Shown here piece by piece: positions 15,746-39,331 of a DNA stretch of 39,331 bases. The notes beneath the pieces were generated by a model that worked only from the letters and a program-made list of their open reading frames with translations, had not been told where the DNA came from and did no database searches. Numbering within the stretch: position 1 is the stretch's first letter; each line of letters begins with the position of its first letter. The DNA comes from a virus: positions 1-39,331 of IMG/VR virus record IMGVR_UViG_3300045020_000093, one strand, 5' to 3'. Both the position numbers and the translations under genes were made by a program.

Positions 15746-15766
15746 AAGATTATGTTGAGATATTGG

Positions 15767-16018
15767 TTATTTCTTCTTTGGTTTTAGTGGTATTGACTGC
15801 TCCGCAGGAGCTACGCTTCTCTTCCAAGCATCCCTATTGGGCGGATCGCTTTCCACGCAAATGATGTTAGAGAAGGGGATATGGTAAGTCTTGCCACCTC
15901 TGGCAATGTAATATCCAGTTGTCCCTTGCGTGCATTCCTCTTCATTGGTGTCAATGGTAGAAGAGAAGTGGAAAGGGTTGGCTTGTGGGCAAGCGGTGCG
16001 AAGGAAGATTTTGATCAT
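15767..16018 (-). CDS. Hypothetical small protein
   Basis: An 83-aa protein starting at ATG 16018, inside an ATGA overlap with the upstream GNAT-like gene. It contains TGYYIARGGKTYHIPFSNII and ends in a basic tail (PLKPKKK). The hydrophobic-beta pattern suggests a small SH3-like or beta-barrel fold, which is a guess. It is part of the same minus-strand operon. Confidence 0.7.
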   Translation of the reverse strand: MIKIFLRTACPQANPFHFSSTIDTNEEECTQGTTGYYIARGGKTYHIPFSNIICVESDPPNRDAWKRSVAPAEQSIPLKPKKK

Positions 16019-16443
16019 AGAAGTCCTAACAGATAAGGGTCGAACAAATACTTGTTGGAGAGGTGGCGCATAGCGTTTTCATTCTTGGCTGGGTAAGTAA
16101 AGATGACGCGGTGCCCCTCTGGATTGGCGAAGGTCAAGAGTTGGTGGAGGAAGCCTTGGCGCCTCTCATCGGGCCTTGTGTAGGCATAGAGGCATACCAA
16201 TTGTCCTTGGAAGGAGCGATACGCCAGCCAACTAACAATATCATCGGGGCTGTCATCCAAGACAGAAACCAAGATAGTGGAGGCGGCAAGCATCGTTTCC
16301 GCTTGTCTTCTGAATTTATTTTGGAAATCCAAAATGTATTGATTGGGATAGGTGGCCGTAAAGGAGCGAGCCCAGCTATCGACAATGAAGCCAAGGTCAG
16401 TGGTTTCGCCTAAGCGGATGGTAGTATCGGCAAGAGTAAGCAT
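16015..16443 (-). CDS. GNAT-like acetyltransferase domain protein
   Basis: A 142-aa protein. Order and spacing fit a small GNAT fold: an N-terminal strand with IRLGETTDLGFIVDSWARSF, central strands ILVSVLDD and DIVSWLAYR, then LYAYTRPDERRQGFLHQLL. That last segment corresponds to the acetyl-CoA loop (V-x-x-x-x-R-x-x-G-x-G/A), with RRQGFL in place of the usual RGxGxG/A. Small proteins of this type are common between terminase and portal genes in environmental podoviruses. The substrate is unknown. ATG follows the methyltransferase stop by one base. Confidence 0.7.
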   Translation of the reverse strand: MLTLADTTIRLGETTDLGFIVDSWARSFTATYPNQYILDFQNKFRRQAETMLAASTILVSVLDDSPDDIVSWLAYRSFQGQLVCLYAYTRPDERRQGFLHQLLTFANPEGHRVIFTYPAKNENAMRHLSNKYLFDPYLLGLL

Positions 16444-16444
16444 A

Positions 16445-17638
16445 TCAACCCAACCAATAAGCTAAACGGTCTTGGGCAAAGGCGACATATTCCGCCTCCA
16501 TCTCAATACCGGTAATGTCTGTCCAACCTGCTAAGCCGGCTCCAATCATCTCGCTACCCGCACCACTCCACGGCACCAAAAGTTTAGCTTGTGGGTTGGC
16601 TGGCAAGAGAAGCTTAGCGAGCCAAGTGGTTAGCGAAATGGGTTTCAAGGTGGGGTGAGAACACCCAGCCTTAGAAGTAATACCGGCGTTTCGTTCTTTG
16701 GTGCTGACCTTAGCAGTAAAGAAGAAACGAGACGGCCCCCCATTATCATCATAACCAAAGTCAGGCGCTTGCCCCTTGGCTTTGCCCAAGATGGAGCCCT
16801 TTTTGCTGCCACGCTTTCCCTTGGTAGAGGGGCGGTTGCCTACGGTGGCATCCAGAAGTTGAGCGGCAGACTCATCCAAGAGAACGTTGGAGGGCCAGCG
16901 TCCCGAAGCATCCGGCTTGGGAGGGCGAGCATAGCTGGCTCCAGCAAGGGCCAAGTTATCCCCCGCTGGGCTCCCAGAATGGCTCCAACCGCTTTCATCG
17001 CCTTCGGAGCGGGTAATCCTGCAAGCGTCAATGTTGAGAGCGCCACAGCCCCACGTGGCCACGTTGTGAGCCACCGTTCCGTCCAGCGGCTTGCGAGCCA
17101 AGACGATCGGTTCATGACAAGGCTTTAGGTTGGTGGCGTAGCCTTCCCACTGTTTGGCCAGGTCAGTGGCGCTAGCGGTAACGGGCACCTCCACATTGCC
17201 AGCGGTGCCCACTTGCACACCATAGGTACCTCCCTTGTCTTTGAGGCTAACGCCAGCGTTGCCCGTCAAGATGCGGGTGCCGACAATGGGGCGAGTAGCA
17301 CCCGCAGCCTTGTCCAAAGCCTTAGAGACGTTCAGCGCCTTGGGCATCCCCTTGGCGTAGAGGTAGCAAAGGGTGTCCCTAAGCTCTGCCCCGGCATCTT
17401 CCAAGTTGACGGCCAAGCGATGGTAGGTGCGGCTACCACCAAAGACCACAATAGGAGCGCCGGGTTTCAAGACCCTAAGAAGCTCTTGCCATTCGGCTAC
17501 GGTGGGAACGTCATAATCCCACGATTTCCCCATGAAGCTGAGGCCATAGGGCGGATCGCCCAAGAGAGCGTCAAAAGTGTGGTCGGGAAGTTTCTGGCAA
17601 GCCTCCAAGAGGGTGGCGGTATGAATTGTGTAGGACAT
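16445..17638 (-). CDS. Site-specific DNA methyltransferase (N6-adenine/N4-cytosine, beta-type order)
   Basis: A 397-aa protein. The catalytic motif DPPYGL is at residues 28-33 and is followed by VLKPGAPIVVFGGSRTYHRL. Near the C-terminus come HPTLKPISLTTWLAKLL, then the SAM-binding loop VPWSGAGSEMIGAGLAG (FxGxG variant) and GIEMEAEYVAFAQDRL. Catalytic motif before SAM motif is the beta-class order. DPPY allows N6-adenine or N4-cytosine methylation, not C5. No partner restriction gene is nearby, so it is likely an orphan methylase that protects or marks phage DNA. It is the first minus-strand gene after the integration module. Confidence 0.9.
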   Translation of the reverse strand: MSYTIHTATLLEACQKLPDHTFDALLGDPPYGLSFMGKSWDYDVPTVAEWQELLRVLKPGAPIVVFGGSRTYHRLAVNLEDAGAELRDTLCYLYAKGMPKALNVSKALDKAAGATRPIVGTRILTGNAGVSLKDKGGTYGVQVGTAGNVEVPVTASATDLAKQWEGYATNLKPCHEPIVLARKPLDGTVAHNVATWGCGALNIDACRITRSEGDESGWSHSGSPAGDNLALAGASYARPPKPDASGRWPSNVLLDESAAQLLDATVGNRPSTKGKRGSKKGSILGKAKGQAPDFGYDDNGGPSRFFFTAKVSTKERNAGITSKAGCSHPTLKPISLTTWLAKLLLPANPQAKLLVPWSGAGSEMIGAGLAGWTDITGIEMEAEYVAFAQDRLAYWLG

Positions 17639-17674
17639 ACCCCCATGGCGAAATATTCCATATGGTTGGGAGCG

Positions 17675-17697
17675 TTGCCGTTGTCACGCCATTGCCA
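17675..17697 (+). repeat. Integrase arm-type site candidate, left arm
   Basis: TTGCCGTTGTCA, five bases, then TTGCCA. The same arrangement recurs at 17882-17904 and 19947-19969. The TTGTCA and TTGYCA hexamers are 11 bp apart, about one helical turn. It lies about 95 bp left of the tRNA-like attP core. Confidence 0.55.
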
Positions 17698-17788
17698 AAC
17701 CGCTTTGGCGCGAGGATAACTTACAACATTCGTGCCAATTTATAAGGTTGCGGAATGACAACGAGAATTGTGCAAGATAGCGAAACCA

Positions 17789-17826
17789 TTAGGGGGCGAG
17801 AGACGTTCAAATCCTCTCGCCCCGAC
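17789..17826 (+). other. attP core candidate: tRNA 3'-end identity block
   Basis: Contains GTTCAAATC (a T-loop with flanking stem) followed by CCTCTCGCCCCGA, which reads as T-stem, acceptor strand CGCCCCG and discriminator A, as in proteobacterial tRNA-Pro. The encoded CCA is replaced by CATA. The upstream AGGGGGCGAGAGACG resembles the 3' anticodon stem and variable loop. It lies 65 bp from the integrase stop, as usual for tRNA-targeting phages. GGGGCGAGAG (17793-17802) and CTCTCGCCCC (17814-17823) also pair as a perfect 10-bp hairpin. No tRNA 5' half is present, so it is not a tRNA gene. Confidence 0.7.
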
Positions 17827-17881
17827 ATATGCATATGGCTGAAATGCTTGAAGAAAGAGCCGATTGACAAGCCGAAAAGTG

Positions 17882-17904
17882 GAGCCGTTGTCAGTCAGTT
17901 GTCA
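17882..17904 (+). repeat. Integrase arm-type site candidate, right arm
   Basis: GCCGTTGTCAGTCAGTTG followed by TCA gives two TTGTCA hexamers at 17888 and 17899, 11 bp apart. Another TTGTCA lies at 17928 and its reverse complement at 17865. The integrase stop codon falls within this repeat. The 18-bp core is repeated exactly at 19948-19965. Confidence 0.55.
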
Positions 17905-19045
17905 AACCACTGCCGGAATTTGTAGCGTTGTCAAGGCTCGGTTTAGGGGCAGAAAGACCGTCCAGCACACCCCGGACGTTATCCCCTGTGCCGGGTATCA
18001 GATGACTGTAGCGTTGGGTCATAGCGGCAGAGCTATGCCCCAGATGGGCTTGCAGCTCTGTCAGAGAGACCTTGCCGGAAGAGATGAGCCAAGAGGCATA
18101 GGTGTGCCTAAGGCCATGGCGAGAGGTGGCCTTGACTTTGGCCCTGACACATGCTCGCCCCACCCGCTTGTAGAGGGCTCGAACCGAGGGGATGTAGGAG
18201 CCAAAGACCAAGGCGTCATCTGCAACCCCAACCGCCCCTCTGTCGGCTCGCAACTTAGTGAGGGCGGCTTGCAGACGGTCAGAGAGAGGCACCACCCGTG
18301 GCCTGCCTGACTTGGTAGTCTTGATGCCACTGTCCACGGTCCCTTTGGCCAGAGACTTGGATAGGACGAGTTGATTAGGGCGGATGTCAGACCAAGAGAG
18401 GGCCAGTTGCTCGCCGGATCGTGTGCCGCTATCGGTGGCAAAGAGTAAGAGCGTATATTCTTCGTGGTCTCTGGCGGAAGCTAACAGTTGCTCGTGTTCC
18501 TCTGGGGTCAGAAACTCGGGTATATCGGTAGCTGGCGCTTTGACCTTGGGAAAGGTAGGAAGGAAGGGGAGCAACTCCCATTCCACGGCTAATGATAAAA
18601 GCTTGTGCAATAAGGCAAGGTGGTCTCTTTGGGCTTTGGGCTGACAATCAGGACGAAGAGAGGCGAGGTAGTCATCAATGGTTCCTCGGGTAATAGAGGT
18701 AAGGGCCAGCTTGCCAAAGTGTGGTAAGAGGCGCTTGTCAATGGCAGACGAGACCTTGTCTTGATAAGCGGGCGAGAGGGTAGGGAGGTGTCGAGACCTG
18801 TAAAGGTCAATCAGGTTGGTAAAGGTATGAGCAGTAGGGGCGATAGGAGCCGGGTTGCGAAGCTCATTCCGTCGCTTCTCTGCCCACTGGTAAGCTTGGG
18901 CTTGGGAGTATTGGGTCAGTCTCTTGCGCTCCCGATGCTTGCCGACCGTAAAGGAGACGTCCCAAGAGGTGGGTTTGCCTGTTTTGCTGTCGTTGGAACC
19001 TGCTACAGGTTTGAGATGGATCGAGCCTTTGGTGTTATTCTTCAT
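17891..19045 (-). CDS. int: Tyrosine-family site-specific integrase
   Basis: With the start at 19045 the protein has 384 aa. An N-terminal arm/core-binding part (residues 1-175, SAM-like helices around TFTNLIDLYRSRHLPTL) precedes a catalytic domain with all expected residues: Arg209 in TRSGEQLALSW, Lys in KTTKSGRPRVVPL, His310 and Arg313 in HGLRHTYASW, His336 in LGHSS, Tyr346 in RYSHL. It should recombine attP with a host tRNA gene. An in-frame start at 19105 would lie upstream of and across a strong promoter. That promoter's expected transcription start coincides with the ATG at 19045, so this start is preferred and the mRNA may be leaderless. attP lies just beyond its 3' end. Confidence 0.95.
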   Translation of the reverse strand: MKNNTKGSIHLKPVAGSNDSKTGKPTSWDVSFTVGKHRERKRLTQYSQAQAYQWAEKRRNELRNPAPIAPTAHTFTNLIDLYRSRHLPTLSPAYQDKVSSAIDKRLLPHFGKLALTSITRGTIDDYLASLRPDCQPKAQRDHLALLHKLLSLAVEWELLPFLPTFPKVKAPATDIPEFLTPEEHEQLLASARDHEEYTLLLFATDSGTRSGEQLALSWSDIRPNQLVLSKSLAKGTVDSGIKTTKSGRPRVVPLSDRLQAALTKLRADRGAVGVADDALVFGSYIPSVRALYKRVGRACVRAKVKATSRHGLRHTYASWLISSGKVSLTELQAHLGHSSAAMTQRYSHLIPGTGDNVRGVLDGLSAPKPSLDNATNSGSGLTTD

Positions 19046-19052
19046 TCTGCCC

Positions 19053-19080
19053 AATATAGGGGCGAGAGGTTTTTTGTCAA
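19053..19080 (-). promoter_or_regulatory. int promoter (sigma70-type)
   Basis: On the minus strand TTGACA (19080-19075), a 16-base spacer and TATATT (19058-19053) match the sigma70 consensus well. The expected transcription start is about 19045-19047, on top of the integrase ATG (19045-19043). The spacer contains most of a 17-bp element that recurs inverted at 19873-19889. Confidence 0.75.
19056..19072 (-). repeat. 17-bp inverted repeat, copy in int promoter
   Basis: On the minus strand AAACCTCTCGCCCCTAT, identical to the plus strand at 19873-19889. Eleven of its bases, CCTCTCGCCCC, also occur in the attP core (17813-17823). It lies in the spacer and -10 region of the int promoter, so a protein bound here would block int transcription. 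Confidence 0.8.
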
Positions 19081-19086
19081 GGGCCG

Positions 19087-19099
19087 ATCCCAAAGGGAT
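19087..19099. promoter_or_regulatory. Small palindrome between int promoter and 19111 gene
   Basis: ATCCC, AAA, GGGAT: a perfect 5-bp dyad in the short divergent space. It could be an operator, but it is short enough to be chance. Confidence 0.25.
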
Positions 19100-19110
19100 A
19101 AGCAAGCGGA

Positions 19111-19752
19111 ATGATAAAAGATTGGGTTGATTGGGAAGAATACTTGGTTAGGAGCGAGCTTGGTTCAGCTTTGCCTATGGCGACCCTTGATAAGTTTCGG
19201 GATCACTTGAACTATTATTTGATGTTGCAAGCTAACGGCTTGCTTGCTAACCTTGGCTTATTGGAGGTTTCCACGATGAGCAATGTTGATTGGCACGGCT
19301 TGATTACAGACCCGCAATTCAGCAAGGGCGGTAAATTTGATAGCAAGCTGGCGGTTGATTGGTTTCGGGGAGAGTTGGGCGAGCAAGTGGGCAAGATTGC
19401 GGCGGAAGAGGAGAGCCGGCGCAACTTTGAGAAGAACATGGGGAAGGCATTGCATGCCGTTTATGACCAAGCCGGCAAAGACATCCTCCCAAGACCGGTC
19501 TTGATTGAGTATGCCTTGCGAGAGCTAAAGGTGGGGATAGCTCAACACGATGAGGCTTACCAGAAGCTTGCCGATTACATTATGATTGGCGGGGAGGATG
19601 AGACTTTCGGCACCATCTTGGGACCAAGCGGAGGGACTGTTCGTTGCAAGGATGCAAAAGGATCTCCAACCGCTACTGGCAAGACCCAAGCGAACAACAT
19701 CCACTTTGGCAAGGTGATAAGGCAAGGCAAGAAGGGGTCTAGCCCCTCCTAG
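19111..19752 (+). CDS. Hypothetical protein of the integration module, divergent from int
   Basis: A 213-aa protein of no recognised family. The N-terminus (DWVDWEEYLVRSEL) and a middle region rich in Trp, Asp and Glu suggest a compact helical protein; the last 45 residues are Gly/Lys/Thr-rich and probably disordered. It is the only plus-strand gene between terL and the portal operon apart from the homing endonuclease, and is divergent from int with 65 bases between. Divergence from int and flanking 17-bp inverted repeats suggest a regulator or a transferable cargo gene. Either is speculative. A hairpin terminator follows. Confidence 0.75.
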   Translation: MIKDWVDWEEYLVRSELGSALPMATLDKFRDHLNYYLMLQANGLLANLGLLEVSTMSNVDWHGLITDPQFSKGGKFDSKLAVDWFRGELGEQVGKIAAEEESRRNFEKNMGKALHAVYDQAGKDILPRPVLIEYALRELKVGIAQHDEAYQKLADYIMIGGEDETFGTILGPSGGTVRCKDAKGSPTATGKTQANNIHFGKVIRQGKKGSSPS

Positions 19753-19794
19753 GATGACTTATACGGGCCTAGCGGCCCTCGGTTGGGCATAGGG

Positions 19795-19828
19795 AGCCCC
19801 TAGTGAGCTAAAACGGCTCCTAGGGGCT
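19795..19828 (+). terminator. Terminator hairpin after the 19111 gene
   Basis: AGCCCCTAG (19795-19803) and CTAGGGGCT (19820-19828) pair perfectly, and GAGC/GCTC extends the stem past a one-base bulge. A T-rich stretch (TCTGGCTTTG) follows but without a pure T-run. It sits 43 bases after the stop codon. Confidence 0.55.
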
Positions 19829-19872
19829 TCTGGCTTTGTTGGCTTGGGGCGCTGGATAGGGGGTGAGGCTAT

Positions 19873-19889
19873 AAACCTCTCGCCCCTAT
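19873..19889 (+). repeat. 17-bp inverted repeat, distal copy
   Basis: AAACCTCTCGCCCCTAT, exact inverted match to 19056-19072. Together the two copies bracket the 19111 gene. No promoter pair is evident here. Confidence 0.8.
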
Positions 19890-19946
19890 CGCTGTTATTG
19901 GCTATAATCATTGAGCAATCGAGCCACAAAAGCCGTCTGACCGGCT

Positions 19947-19969
19947 TGCCGTTGTCAGTCAGTTGCCAC
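19947..19969 (+). repeat. Third TTGTCA-type element
   Basis: TTGCCGTTGTCA, five bases, then TTGCCA. Outside the five-base spacer it is the same as 17675-17697. Bases 19948-19965 are identical to 17884-17901. It lies 2.1 kb from the attP core, beyond the 19111 gene. Confidence 0.6.
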
Positions 19970-20204
19970 ATTGAGGGTTGTTCAGGTATCGCACCATAAC
20001 CCACACAATCGGGTAGCTCCCTACATACTATTACTGGTATGTGTTTAGGCTCTATAAGCCAGCACCTGCTTCGCAAGAAGCAAGCTTCACCTAATACAAT
20101 ATATGGTAGGTATGAATGCGTGGGATCGATCTTGGTTCGGCTGAAACGAAAGTGCTACGGAAAGTCAGCTAACTACATAGAACTACAAGCATAACCTAAT
20201 CCCA

Positions 20205-20247
20205 TACCTAACTCTACCCCTTATTAGAATAGGGTAGAGAGTAGGTA
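20205..20247 (-). terminator. Hairpin directly after terL
   Basis: CTCTACCC (20212-20219) pairs with GGGTAGAG (20232-20239), and TACCTA (20205-20210) with TAGGTA (20242-20247). It begins two bases after the terL stop on the minus strand. There is no strong T-run, so it may be an mRNA-stabilising hairpin instead of an efficient terminator. Confidence 0.5.
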
Positions 20248-20248
20248 G

Positions 20249-21772
20249 TTATCGGTGCTTTCCGGGCTTATACCCTGCTTTAGAGAAGTCAATCCCAGCT
20301 ACCGAGGATGGGAGATAGCCACCCTGTATCATGGGCCTTGGCTTGTTGCGGTCAATGAGAAGCTTGGCCAGCTCATAGTTCTGTTGCTCGATAGTGGGAG
20401 GCAAGGCTTTGGGCTTGGGCGCCTTATACCAGTGAGGGCGGCAGTAATGGTGTGCATAGACCATAGCGTCCAGCATATGGTCGCTAAGGCCTGACTTGAA
20501 CTCGCGCCTATTCTCCGTATTGAGTTTGACCGGATCCCAAATCATCTTGGACATCTCGTCTTTGAGAATAGGGCAGTTATCTATCAGAACCGTGCCAGCT
20601 CTCAGATCTCCGTTTAGGGTGTTGATATGTGCGTTCTTCCCCAACTTTTCCGCATAGTGGATACTCCACCCATAGTTGTTATTGAGATCTTCCACTTGGG
20701 CTTTGGCTTGGGAGCCAGCATCCGCCACCATAAACTGAAAGTGGTATCGACGATCCAGTAGCTTGATATGCTCGTGAATGTCGGGCACATACATTTCGTT
20801 CTGCATATGCTCATTGAGGATAAAGAGTTTATTGGAATAGGTTAGATTATAGCACACTACCAAAAAGGTCATGGGGTCGGGACTGAAGCCCCAGTCCATA
20901 CCAAGACCGTAGATAGCTCCCGTGGCATGGTCGAAGAAGTGTTGCGCCGGTTTGATGGTTTGACAGTCAGGGTGCCCCAAGAAGTTAGCGTTAGAGAAGT
21001 GGAAAGCAAGACGGGTTTTGGAAATAATCCACTTACACAGGTATTGTTGTAGCCAGAAGTCTTCTTCGATGTAGGTGGGGCCAAACTCGGCCAGGAAGTT
21101 GTCTTGCTCGATTCGCTTCTGTTTGGCCATATGGGGGTTATCGTCGTGCTCCCAATGGTGAATCGACCAACCCAGGTTCTCCGTTATCCCTATGATGGGT
21201 TGCTGCTCATTGACTTGGAACCAGTAGTTACTTCCCATAAAATCACCGGCTGTGCCAGCCAAGATGATTTGACCACCTCCCTTATCCAGATAGTCAGAGA
21301 CACATGGCCCAATATCCTTTTGCACCATCTTCTTGAGATCTTGGGTTTGATTTTGGCACTCGTCCACGCACACCATATAGCGTTTGGAGCCTAGGATCTT
21401 CCCTACCTCCTTGTAAGAGACATCCAAGCCGGCAAACTTGATAGAGGCACCGTTGGAGAACTCAATTAGCTTTTCGTTATTGTTATACTTATAGTCCTTC
21501 TCGGAGAGGTGTTGCGGGATAATCCCGTTTTCCTTACCGAGGAGAATGGGAAACATCGTATTTTCGGCAGAGCCTGAGGTTAGACCGAAGTACAGGATTG
21601 AGACACCCGGGTTAGTCAGGGCGGCAAGAAGGAAATAGACACCAATGGCGGTTGACTTACCGGCACGTCTGCCCACGAACAGAGCCTTACGTTTGGACTT
21701 GTCGTTGATAAACGCTAATTGCTGGGGAAAGCAATGCTTGCGAATGGCAAGGAGAACGTTATTTGATACCAT
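20249..21772 (-). CDS. terL: Terminase large subunit
   Basis: A 507-aa packaging motor. ATPase: Walker A GRRAGKST (about residues 34-41), Walker B MVCVDE (Asp137, Glu138), coupling motif LAGTAG (171-176). Nuclease: first Asp in MDWGFSPDP (Asp293), second in MVADAGSQ (Asp351), third in SDHMLDAMVY (Asp431/Asp435). The frame can open at TTG 21775, but ATG 21772 is the likelier start, with AAGGA just upstream. The gene overlaps the end of the preceding gene by 14 bases. It cuts concatemers and drives DNA into the prohead. The packaging type cannot be read from sequence. Confidence 0.95.
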   Translation of the reverse strand: MVSNNVLLAIRKHCFPQQLAFINDKSKRKALFVGRRAGKSTAIGVYFLLAALTNPGVSILYFGLTSGSAENTMFPILLGKENGIIPQHLSEKDYKYNNNEKLIEFSNGASIKFAGLDVSYKEVGKILGSKRYMVCVDECQNQTQDLKKMVQKDIGPCVSDYLDKGGGQIILAGTAGDFMGSNYWFQVNEQQPIIGITENLGWSIHHWEHDDNPHMAKQKRIEQDNFLAEFGPTYIEEDFWLQQYLCKWIISKTRLAFHFSNANFLGHPDCQTIKPAQHFFDHATGAIYGLGMDWGFSPDPMTFLVVCYNLTYSNKLFILNEHMQNEMYVPDIHEHIKLLDRRYHFQFMVADAGSQAKAQVEDLNNNYGWSIHYAEKLGKNAHINTLNGDLRAGTVLIDNCPILKDEMSKMIWDPVKLNTENRREFKSGLSDHMLDAMVYAHHYCRPHWYKAPKPKALPPTIEQQNYELAKLLIDRNKPRPMIQGGYLPSSVAGIDFSKAGYKPGKHR

Positions 21773-25592: not shown

Positions 25593-26258
25593 ATGAAGAA
25601 AGAACCACGAATCAAAGCAGCTACGTGGACCAAAAACGCTAAGCCCGTCTATTGGCCCCTCAGCCGTCTCTTGCGTCTGATTGATGACCAATTCACCTAC
25701 CAGCCCAGGAAGGGTAAGCTGATTTGCCACAACGGGACGGCTCCCCATATTAGCCCCGTCTATGGGGATTTTAGTCATAGGGTGATGTATCGCTCCCCCA
25801 AGGGGCAACTGTCCTACGTCCGTATCCAAGCGGTTAGGATCGCCCACTACCTAGGGACCGGGGAATGGTCCACGGCTCGTTTCATCCGGTTGATCGATGA
25901 AGATCCCACCAACCTCAAACTATCCAACCTATTGCCGGCCGGATACTCTCAACACACCAGCCGTTACTATAAGCTGAGGGGAGACTTTACCAGCCAATAC
26001 AAGGGGGTTTCTTGCCCGGCCCAACACCAAAAGAAAGGACGCTGGACGGCCAAGATCTGCCACCAGGATCGCCCCTTCTATTTGGGCTCCTTCGATACCG
26101 AAGAAGATGCGGCAGTGAACTATAACATTGCCTCTCTAGAGCTGAGAGGAGATTTTGGGCGCCTCAACCCGTGTAGGGCTCCCACCGAAGAAGAACGAAG
26201 AGCCGTGGTCAAGCTACTGAAAGCCAAACTCAACAAGCAAAAGGAAAAGAAACAATGA
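25593..26258 (+). CDS. HNH-AP2 protein with degenerate HNH part
   Basis: A 221-aa protein. Residues 134-191 form an AP2/ERF DNA-binding domain (SQYKGVSC, GRWTAKI, FYLGSFDTEEDAAVNYN, then LRGDFGRLN). Residues about 60-115 align by pattern to phage HNH domains (VRIAHYLGTGEW, then IDEDPTNLKLSNLLP). The usual catalytic residues are replaced: His of HRL by Val81, and the Asp-His pair by Arg99-Leu100; only Asn107 remains. It looks like a homing endonuclease that has lost cleavage but kept DNA binding, perhaps a domesticated regulator. That reading rests on hand alignment. The stop is in an ATGA overlap. Confidence 0.85.
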   Translation: MKKEPRIKAATWTKNAKPVYWPLSRLLRLIDDQFTYQPRKGKLICHNGTAPHISPVYGDFSHRVMYRSPKGQLSYVRIQAVRIAHYLGTGEWSTARFIRLIDEDPTNLKLSNLLPAGYSQHTSRYYKLRGDFTSQYKGVSCPAQHQKKGRWTAKICHQDRPFYLGSFDTEEDAAVNYNIASLELRGDFGRLNPCRAPTEEERRAVVKLLKAKLNKQKEKKQ

Positions 26259-38512: not shown

Positions 38513-39331
38513 TAGAGCGCCTTCCAGCCTTTGGCCTTAGCAATGTCTGCCGCACTCTTTTTAGACTCACCATCTTCCTTGGCTGGGGTGAAACGTTGTA
38601 CCGCCGCTTCTCTGGTTTGACCCAAGGTCTGTAATTGCTGTTCAATTCCTTTGAGTGCAGTGGCACGGTCTTGCACGCTAGAAGAACCGGTAGCCACGTG
38701 TTGCACCAAACGAACTAGCGGATCGTCTTGCCAAGAGCTAGGGGCCGTAATATTGCCGGTATTGAGTATTCCCCCTTCGTTGCCCTCTCCACCTCCACCA
38801 ACTCTATGCAAGCCTTTGGCAATGGTGAGGTTAGCGGTCAATTCTTTCAAGCCTTGCTCAAACTCTCCCTTTTTGGAAGGATCGTTCTGTATGGCTTGCA
38901 ATCGTGCTACTTGATCTTGAGCGCTCTTGAGGGCGGTTGTCTCTTGAGGCCATGCGTTGGCTTCTGCGTCATTGGGTGCCAGTCCCTTGGATCCATCGGC
39001 TAGGGTGATGACGCGCTTTTGAGCATCATCCGCCAGCTTGGACTTTTCGGCAAAGCTAAGACGTCTACCGCCCATAACATCCGGCACCACTGGATTACCT
39101 TTGGCATCCAAAGTGACGCTATCGCCCTCTGTTGCTGGGGTTGCGGAAGCGGGAGGAGTGAACTCCAACAGACCTGATTTAGGATTGTAGGAACCACCGA
39201 CCGCATTTGCAGCCGAAGCAAGACGAGCGGGCGAGAAGCCTTGGGCTTGCACACTTTGGACGGCTTTTTGATCCGCTTCCTCTGGCGTCATGGTGCCAGC
39301 GGTAACAGCGGCATCAAAGCCAGCTCGTTGT
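38512..39331 (-). CDS. Virion-associated protein, C-terminal part (gene crosses contig junction)
   Basis: Continues the protein that starts at 1061; together 586 aa. This part includes EEADQKAVQSVQAQGFSPAR, a region with SVTLDAKGNPVVPDVMGGRR and long Ala/Gln/Lys-rich helices (LQAIQNDPSKKGEFEQGLKE), ending AKGWKAL. An ATG at 39291 is internal and not the real start. See the 1-1061 entry. Confidence 0.85.
   Translation of the reverse strand, partial: QRAGFDAAVTAGTMTPEEADQKAVQSVQAQGFSPARLASAANAVGGSYNPKSGLLEFTPPASATPATEGDSVTLDAKGNPVVPDVMGGRRLSFAEKSKLADDAQKRVITLADGSKGLAPNDAEANAWPQETTALKSAQDQVARLQAIQNDPSKKGEFEQGLKELTANLTIAKGLHRVGGGGEGNEGGILNTGNITAPSSWQDDPLVRLVQHVATGSSSVQDRATALKGIEQQLQTLGQTREAAVQRFTPAKEDGESKKSAADIAKAKGWKAL
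39233..39331. repeat. Terminal redundancy, copy 2
   Basis: Exact 99-bp copy of 22-120. It lies inside the minus-strand gene that crosses the junction. A length of 99 fits an assembly k-mer overlap better than a biological direct terminal repeat, but sequence alone cannot separate the two. Confidence 0.9.

Follow-up and report, generated by a model that had tools for sequence, protein, structure and literature searches.

The phage genome IMGVR_UViG_3300045020_000093 from IMG/VR has a non-coding intergenic stretch of 250 bp (17639-17890) between a DNA methyltransferase gene (16445-17638, - strand) and a tyrosine integrase gene (int), and the locus raises the question of whether the repeats gathered there form the site by which the phage integrates into a host chromosome. 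Here, we analyzed the entire 39,331-base record, referred to below as the window. Judging from its sequence, the segment 17681-17933 is very probably a lambda-like phage attachment site (attP) with arm sites for the integrase (Int), belonging to a temperate or formerly temperate phage. We favor this reading because half-sites centered on a T-loop are flanked on both sides by pairs of arm sites, next to an integrase with a complete active site and a modeled arm-binding fold. It is further supported because the same double-pair layout with 11-bp spacing recurs beside other integrases and because published attP sites are described alike. The same interpretation had been proposed in a first-pass annotation of this DNA, and our results bear it out.

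The core is a perfect 10-bp inverted repeat on the + strand (17793-17823), formed by GGGGCGAGAG (17793-17802) and CTCTCGCCCC (17814-17823) with 11 nt between them, and its DNA fold z score is -4.96. The center of the repeat is T-loop-like, and inverted half-sites are thus arranged around an overlap of 6-8 bp, as in a lambda-type attP. From the T-loop to the discriminator base, the core is identical to the 3' end of tRNA-Pro over 21 bp (GTTCAAATCCTCTCGCCCCGA, 17805-17825, + strand). These 21 bp are found unchanged in many tRNA-Pro genes, including at least 120 IMG/VR stretches, in many of which ARAGORN calls a tRNA-Pro, and in the tRNA-Pro of four bacterial genomes. The match to the tRNA-Pro 3' end had been put at 38 bp (17789-17826) in the first-pass annotation; the right half stands, but 17789-17804, on the left, is phage inverted repeat rather than tRNA. 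For phage Ms6, the 7-bp T-loop was given as the place of strand exchange (PMC1762012), and we therefore place the overlap in the T-loop, where it is likely GTTCAAA or TTCAAAT, at about 17805-17812.

On either side of the core lies a direct pair of short repeats on the + strand. The left pair (17681-17697) consists of TTGTCA at 17681 and TTGCCA at 17692, and the right pair (17888-17904), which lies over the int stop codon, consists of TTGTCA at 17888 and 17899. The pairs had been reported before, and their placement on both sides and their spacing of exactly 11 bp hold, although the ranges given for them began 6 bp early. A third right-hand arm-like TTGTCA (17928-17933, + strand) within the 3' end of int and an inverted copy right of the core (17865-17870, - strand) are also present as listed, but the list missed a second inverted copy, a single TTGTCA within CGTTGTCA (17756-17763, - strand; TGACAACG when read on the + strand), which is an exact inverted match over 8 bp. 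Both inverted copies are putative arm-like sites. The two direct pairs fall within a 28-bp imperfect repeat with copies 207 bp apart, a self-match that was not equaled when the 600-bp region was shuffled 400 times. TTGTCA occurs six times in 301 bp versus 0.21 expected genome-wide, making this stretch richer in TTGTCA than any other 300 bp of the genome, and no 6-mer reached six copies in 500 shuffles of the region. TTGYCA pairs at a spacing of 11 occur three times in the genome (17681/17692, 17888/17899, and 19952/19963), and only these three remain when one mismatch is allowed; shuffles gave a mean of 0.017 and a maximum of 1. All these figures for the motif are optimistic, as it was chosen by eye after seeing the data. 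Repeated arm sites are thus found on both sides of the core, as in a lambda-type attP.

The integrase gene adjoins the core, as noted earlier, and is complete (17891-19045, - strand), with an ATG start at 19045 and a product of 384 amino acids matching PF00589 (E = 1.3e-20). All six catalytic residues of this domain (R209, K245, H310, R313, H337, and Y346) are present, as in lambda-type integrases. An AlphaFold2 model of Int has a mean pLDDT of 78.5, and its N-terminus is predicted with a pLDDT of ~90 as three strands (9-13, 27-34, and 37-44) and a helix (48-63), a beta-beta-beta-alpha unit that appears to be the lambda-type arm-binding fold. Pfam returned no arm-domain match in the N-terminus, so the assignment of the arm-binding domain rests on the model. 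A Foldseek search matched the model to full-length lambda Int (1z1b, 1z1g) and to Tn1549 Int. Because of this N-terminal unit and the match to lambda Int, Int appears to have what arm-site binding needs.

Since the motif had been picked by eye, we sought a motif-independent test. At 26 integrase genes of this broad family, that of the window among them, we scanned the adjoining 450 bp behind the gene for 6-mers occurring twice at a set spacing, with such a pair present again at a distance of 150-250 bp. No motif was preset, which frees the scan from after-the-fact choice, and expectations came from Markov resampling. At a spacing of 11, four of the 26 loci had a double pair versus 0.28 expected, an excess that is indicative rather than exact because the loci are partly interrelated; spacings of 9, 10, 12, and 13 gave 0, 1, 2, and 0 loci. 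Prophages or fragments make up many of the other loci, and in these just one arm remains next to int. The distance from pair to pair is 207 bp in the window, 210 bp in locus L004 (arm word GGGACA), 217 bp in Burkholderia phage Musica, and 237 bp in locus L153, and in all four the pairs are direct and begin at or near the end of int. One of the four integrases is 22% identical, and its locus differs in arm word and tRNA. An apparent 5' half of tRNA-Tyr (read by eye) lies between the pairs of L004, and a tRNA-like 3' half between those of Musica. Furthermore, at six related integrase loci from alphaproteobacterial or other proteobacterial metagenome-assembled genomes (L128, L129, L130, L134, L135, and L138), int is directly followed by a conserved 11-bp repeat, ATTATTTTGTY-ATTATT, which is probably their arm pair.

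Published attachment sites show similar arrangements. In the part of the source that deals with these phages, the attP of CrimD is described with a core flanked by two pairs of 11-bp repeats, those of L5 and Giles with direct pairs, and that of Pixie with a direct pair on the left, a direct triplet on the right, and one inverted site, which is nearly the layout found here (PMC3203893). All four differ from the window in arm word, tRNA, and host, the common core of Pixie is 47 bp versus 21 bp, and that part of the source describes no second array, unlike the one reported below (PMC3203893). The attP of the window is therefore of the standard L5/Pixie-like kind, which is already well known. Like the present core, that of Ms6 is a tRNA 3' end that includes the T-loop; it differs in using tRNA-Ala and in having 26 bp with both T-stem strands, whereas the 5' strand in the window is phage inverted repeat (PMC1762012). 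The system resembles lambda in having a putative hetero-bivalent Int, inverted core sites, and arm sites on both sides, and the Int model matches lambda Int over its length. The arm sequences differ from those of lambda, as does the target, since the attB of lambda lies outside tRNA genes.

With these parts, the C-terminal domains of Int would bind the inverted core half-sites and the N-terminal domains the TTGYCA arm pairs spaced by 11 bp, so that left arm, core, and right arm could be folded into an intasome. Strand exchange with a host tRNA-Pro gene would then occur at the 7-bp T-loop overlap, and the phage DNA would restore the 3' end of that gene. We infer three elements of this scheme: that Int rather than a directionality factor binds the arms, the point of crossover, and the host.

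Several observations weigh against this reading. The T-stem strand left of the overlap is unlike that of tRNA-Pro (AGAC vs GGAG), and the core ends in GACA, not GACCA, so the CCA encoded by most of the matching tRNA genes is absent. No excisionase or repressor was recognized among ~30 scanned proteins. No attB, attL, attR, or integrated relative was found, and the crossover is placed by inference; the core had earlier been proposed as a query for bacterial genomes, and such a search did find its 21 bp in tRNA-Pro genes but no integrated copy. The closest integrases are ~30% identical, and the relatives recovered by integrase search, at only ~22-30% identity, were rejected as a guide to the host. 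Because tRNA-Pro ends of this sequence are common, the 21 bp name no host. A 23-mer of the core ending in GACA was almost absent across three phyla, occurring in 0 of 398 Pseudomonadota, 0 of 247 Desulfobacterota, and 1 of 246 Planctomycetota genomes; this result and the GACA ending do not support the label "proteobacterial-type" that the tRNA-Pro had been given. The arm word had a single match in IMG/VR, in the coding DNA of an unrelated phage, and was rejected as chance.

A second array, overlooked in the first-pass annotation together with its extra pair at 19952, lies 2 kb from attP in the gap between two convergent genes, orf213 and the terminase gene (19857-19968). It consists of a core-like inverted repeat, GATAGGGGGTGAGG-CTATAAA-CCTCTCGCCCCTATC (19857-19889, + strand), with a 7-nt center and the same half-site, CCTCTCGCCCC, as attP, followed by a second copy of the right arm pair (19952-19968, + strand). 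Positions 19948-19968 are identical to 17884-17904 at 20 of 21 bp, and the arm pair is 76 bp from its core half-site versus 75 bp in attP. Composite arrays of a core and an arm pair at 75/76 bp occur in the genome at attP and the second site only, and the alignment score of the second array (25) exceeds those of all 1,500 other segments of the genome (mean 9.4, maximum 15). Most likely, to judge from the sequence, it is a duplicate attachment site that has diverged, a remnant of some earlier rearrangement or of an exchange of the int module; we favor this because its center differs and because no second site is present in the genomes of L004 and Musica. We rejected an intrinsic terminator, as there is no T run on either side, and also an attL or attR of an inserted element, as the left core half is of the phage type (not tRNA) and the center is different. 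A search of IMG/VR for the second-site core found none, and in a DNA similarity search the second site matched nothing and the methyltransferase gene alone had matches.

The array could instead be a functional Int-binding site, serving as a decoy or architectural site or as another recombination site whose overlap differs, but we consider this unlikely. Its full inverted core with a 7-nt center and its conserved spacing would suit continued binding, as would the identity of core half-site plus arm pair to attP at 27 of 28 positions versus 61% over the remaining alignment, although the alignment was anchored and optimized on those very matches. The center CTATAAA is unlike the T-loop, and no recombination with attP or tRNA-Pro would be expected by the usual overlap rule; the missing counterparts in IMG/VR, L004, and Musica also argue against it.

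The half-site also recurs ahead of int, which had escaped notice before. Of the promoter-like matches in the region, the best is TTGACA-16-TATATT (11/12; 19053-19080, - strand), a predicted int promoter that would give a near-leaderless message. A core half-site, CCTCTCGCCCC (19059-19069), fills the spacer between its -35 and -10 elements, and a 17-mer, AAACCTCTCGCCCCTAT, that is exact at the second array is found inverted within this spacer at 19056-19072. One TTGTCA is located beside the promoter at 19074. Most likely, and plausibly, the promoter half-site would let Int repress its own gene. In KplE1, Int-binding sites overlap the int promoter and IntS represses its own gene (PMC2951348). 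The window is similar in that a predicted Int site, a core half-site, overlaps the predicted int promoter; in KplE1, however, the promoter is overlapped by the whole attL (PMC2951348), whereas the attP of the window lies behind int and the promoter holds just a core half-site. It is also conceivable, but improbable, that the phage has two working Int-binding arrays, alike in half-site and arm spacing but not in their 7-nt centers, on either side of int and one orphan gene, in addition to the promoter half-site. If so, integration could be redirected by the second array to a different target, or the array could sequester Int and in this way set its level.

Instead of serving as Int arm sites, the TTGYCA pairs might be repressor operators or sites for an excision factor. 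Binding close to arm sites is known for some directionality factors, and the inverted copies at 17756 and 17865 and the TTGTCA at 19074 by the int promoter could suit a regulator. However, pairs in the same orientation with 11-bp spacing, 207-237 bp apart, flank the core and are found beside other integrases with unrelated words, and the int stop codon and the space between convergent gene ends, where the right pair and the 19952 copy lie, are atypical positions for operators; we regard this explanation as very unlikely. That chance or coding constraint produced a tRNA-like word among repeats is scarcely credible given the shuffle tests and the motif-free scan, even with a motif picked after the fact.

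The attP reading fits into a phage genome that is complete and circular or terminally redundant, as bases 22-120 recur at 39233-39331 in a 99-bp direct repeat of the ends; at the left end, this repeat is preceded by 21 extra bases. The portal and terminase genes match phage families. In a relative whose terminase is 45% identical (L126), the terminase and portal genes are separated by just one small gene, whereas the window has ~4.5 kb extra between terminase and portal (15746-20248), containing the methyltransferase gene, attP, int, the orphan gene (19111-19752), and the second array. A search for relatives of orf213 found none, and an Rfam search over 17500-20300 was negative. The G+C content is 0.556 in int and 0.536 in the methyltransferase stretch versus 0.47-0.49 in their neighbors, and the ~4.5-kb module looks acquired. 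Elsewhere, 25593-26258 (+ strand) has a weak AP2-domain match and perhaps encodes a homing-endonuclease-like protein. A Shine-Dalgarno-like word precedes only 11 of 25 checked genes, and the host may rely little on such sequences.

Taken as an attachment site, the locus provides a testable attP and a predicted target gene for a phage lineage without close relatives. The double-pair layout with 11-bp spacing, which was detected with no motif chosen beforehand, offers a practical means of locating attP in unannotated phages. Furthermore, the second array and the promoter half-site make up a small, clean system in which to study how integrase sites become duplicated or reused for control.
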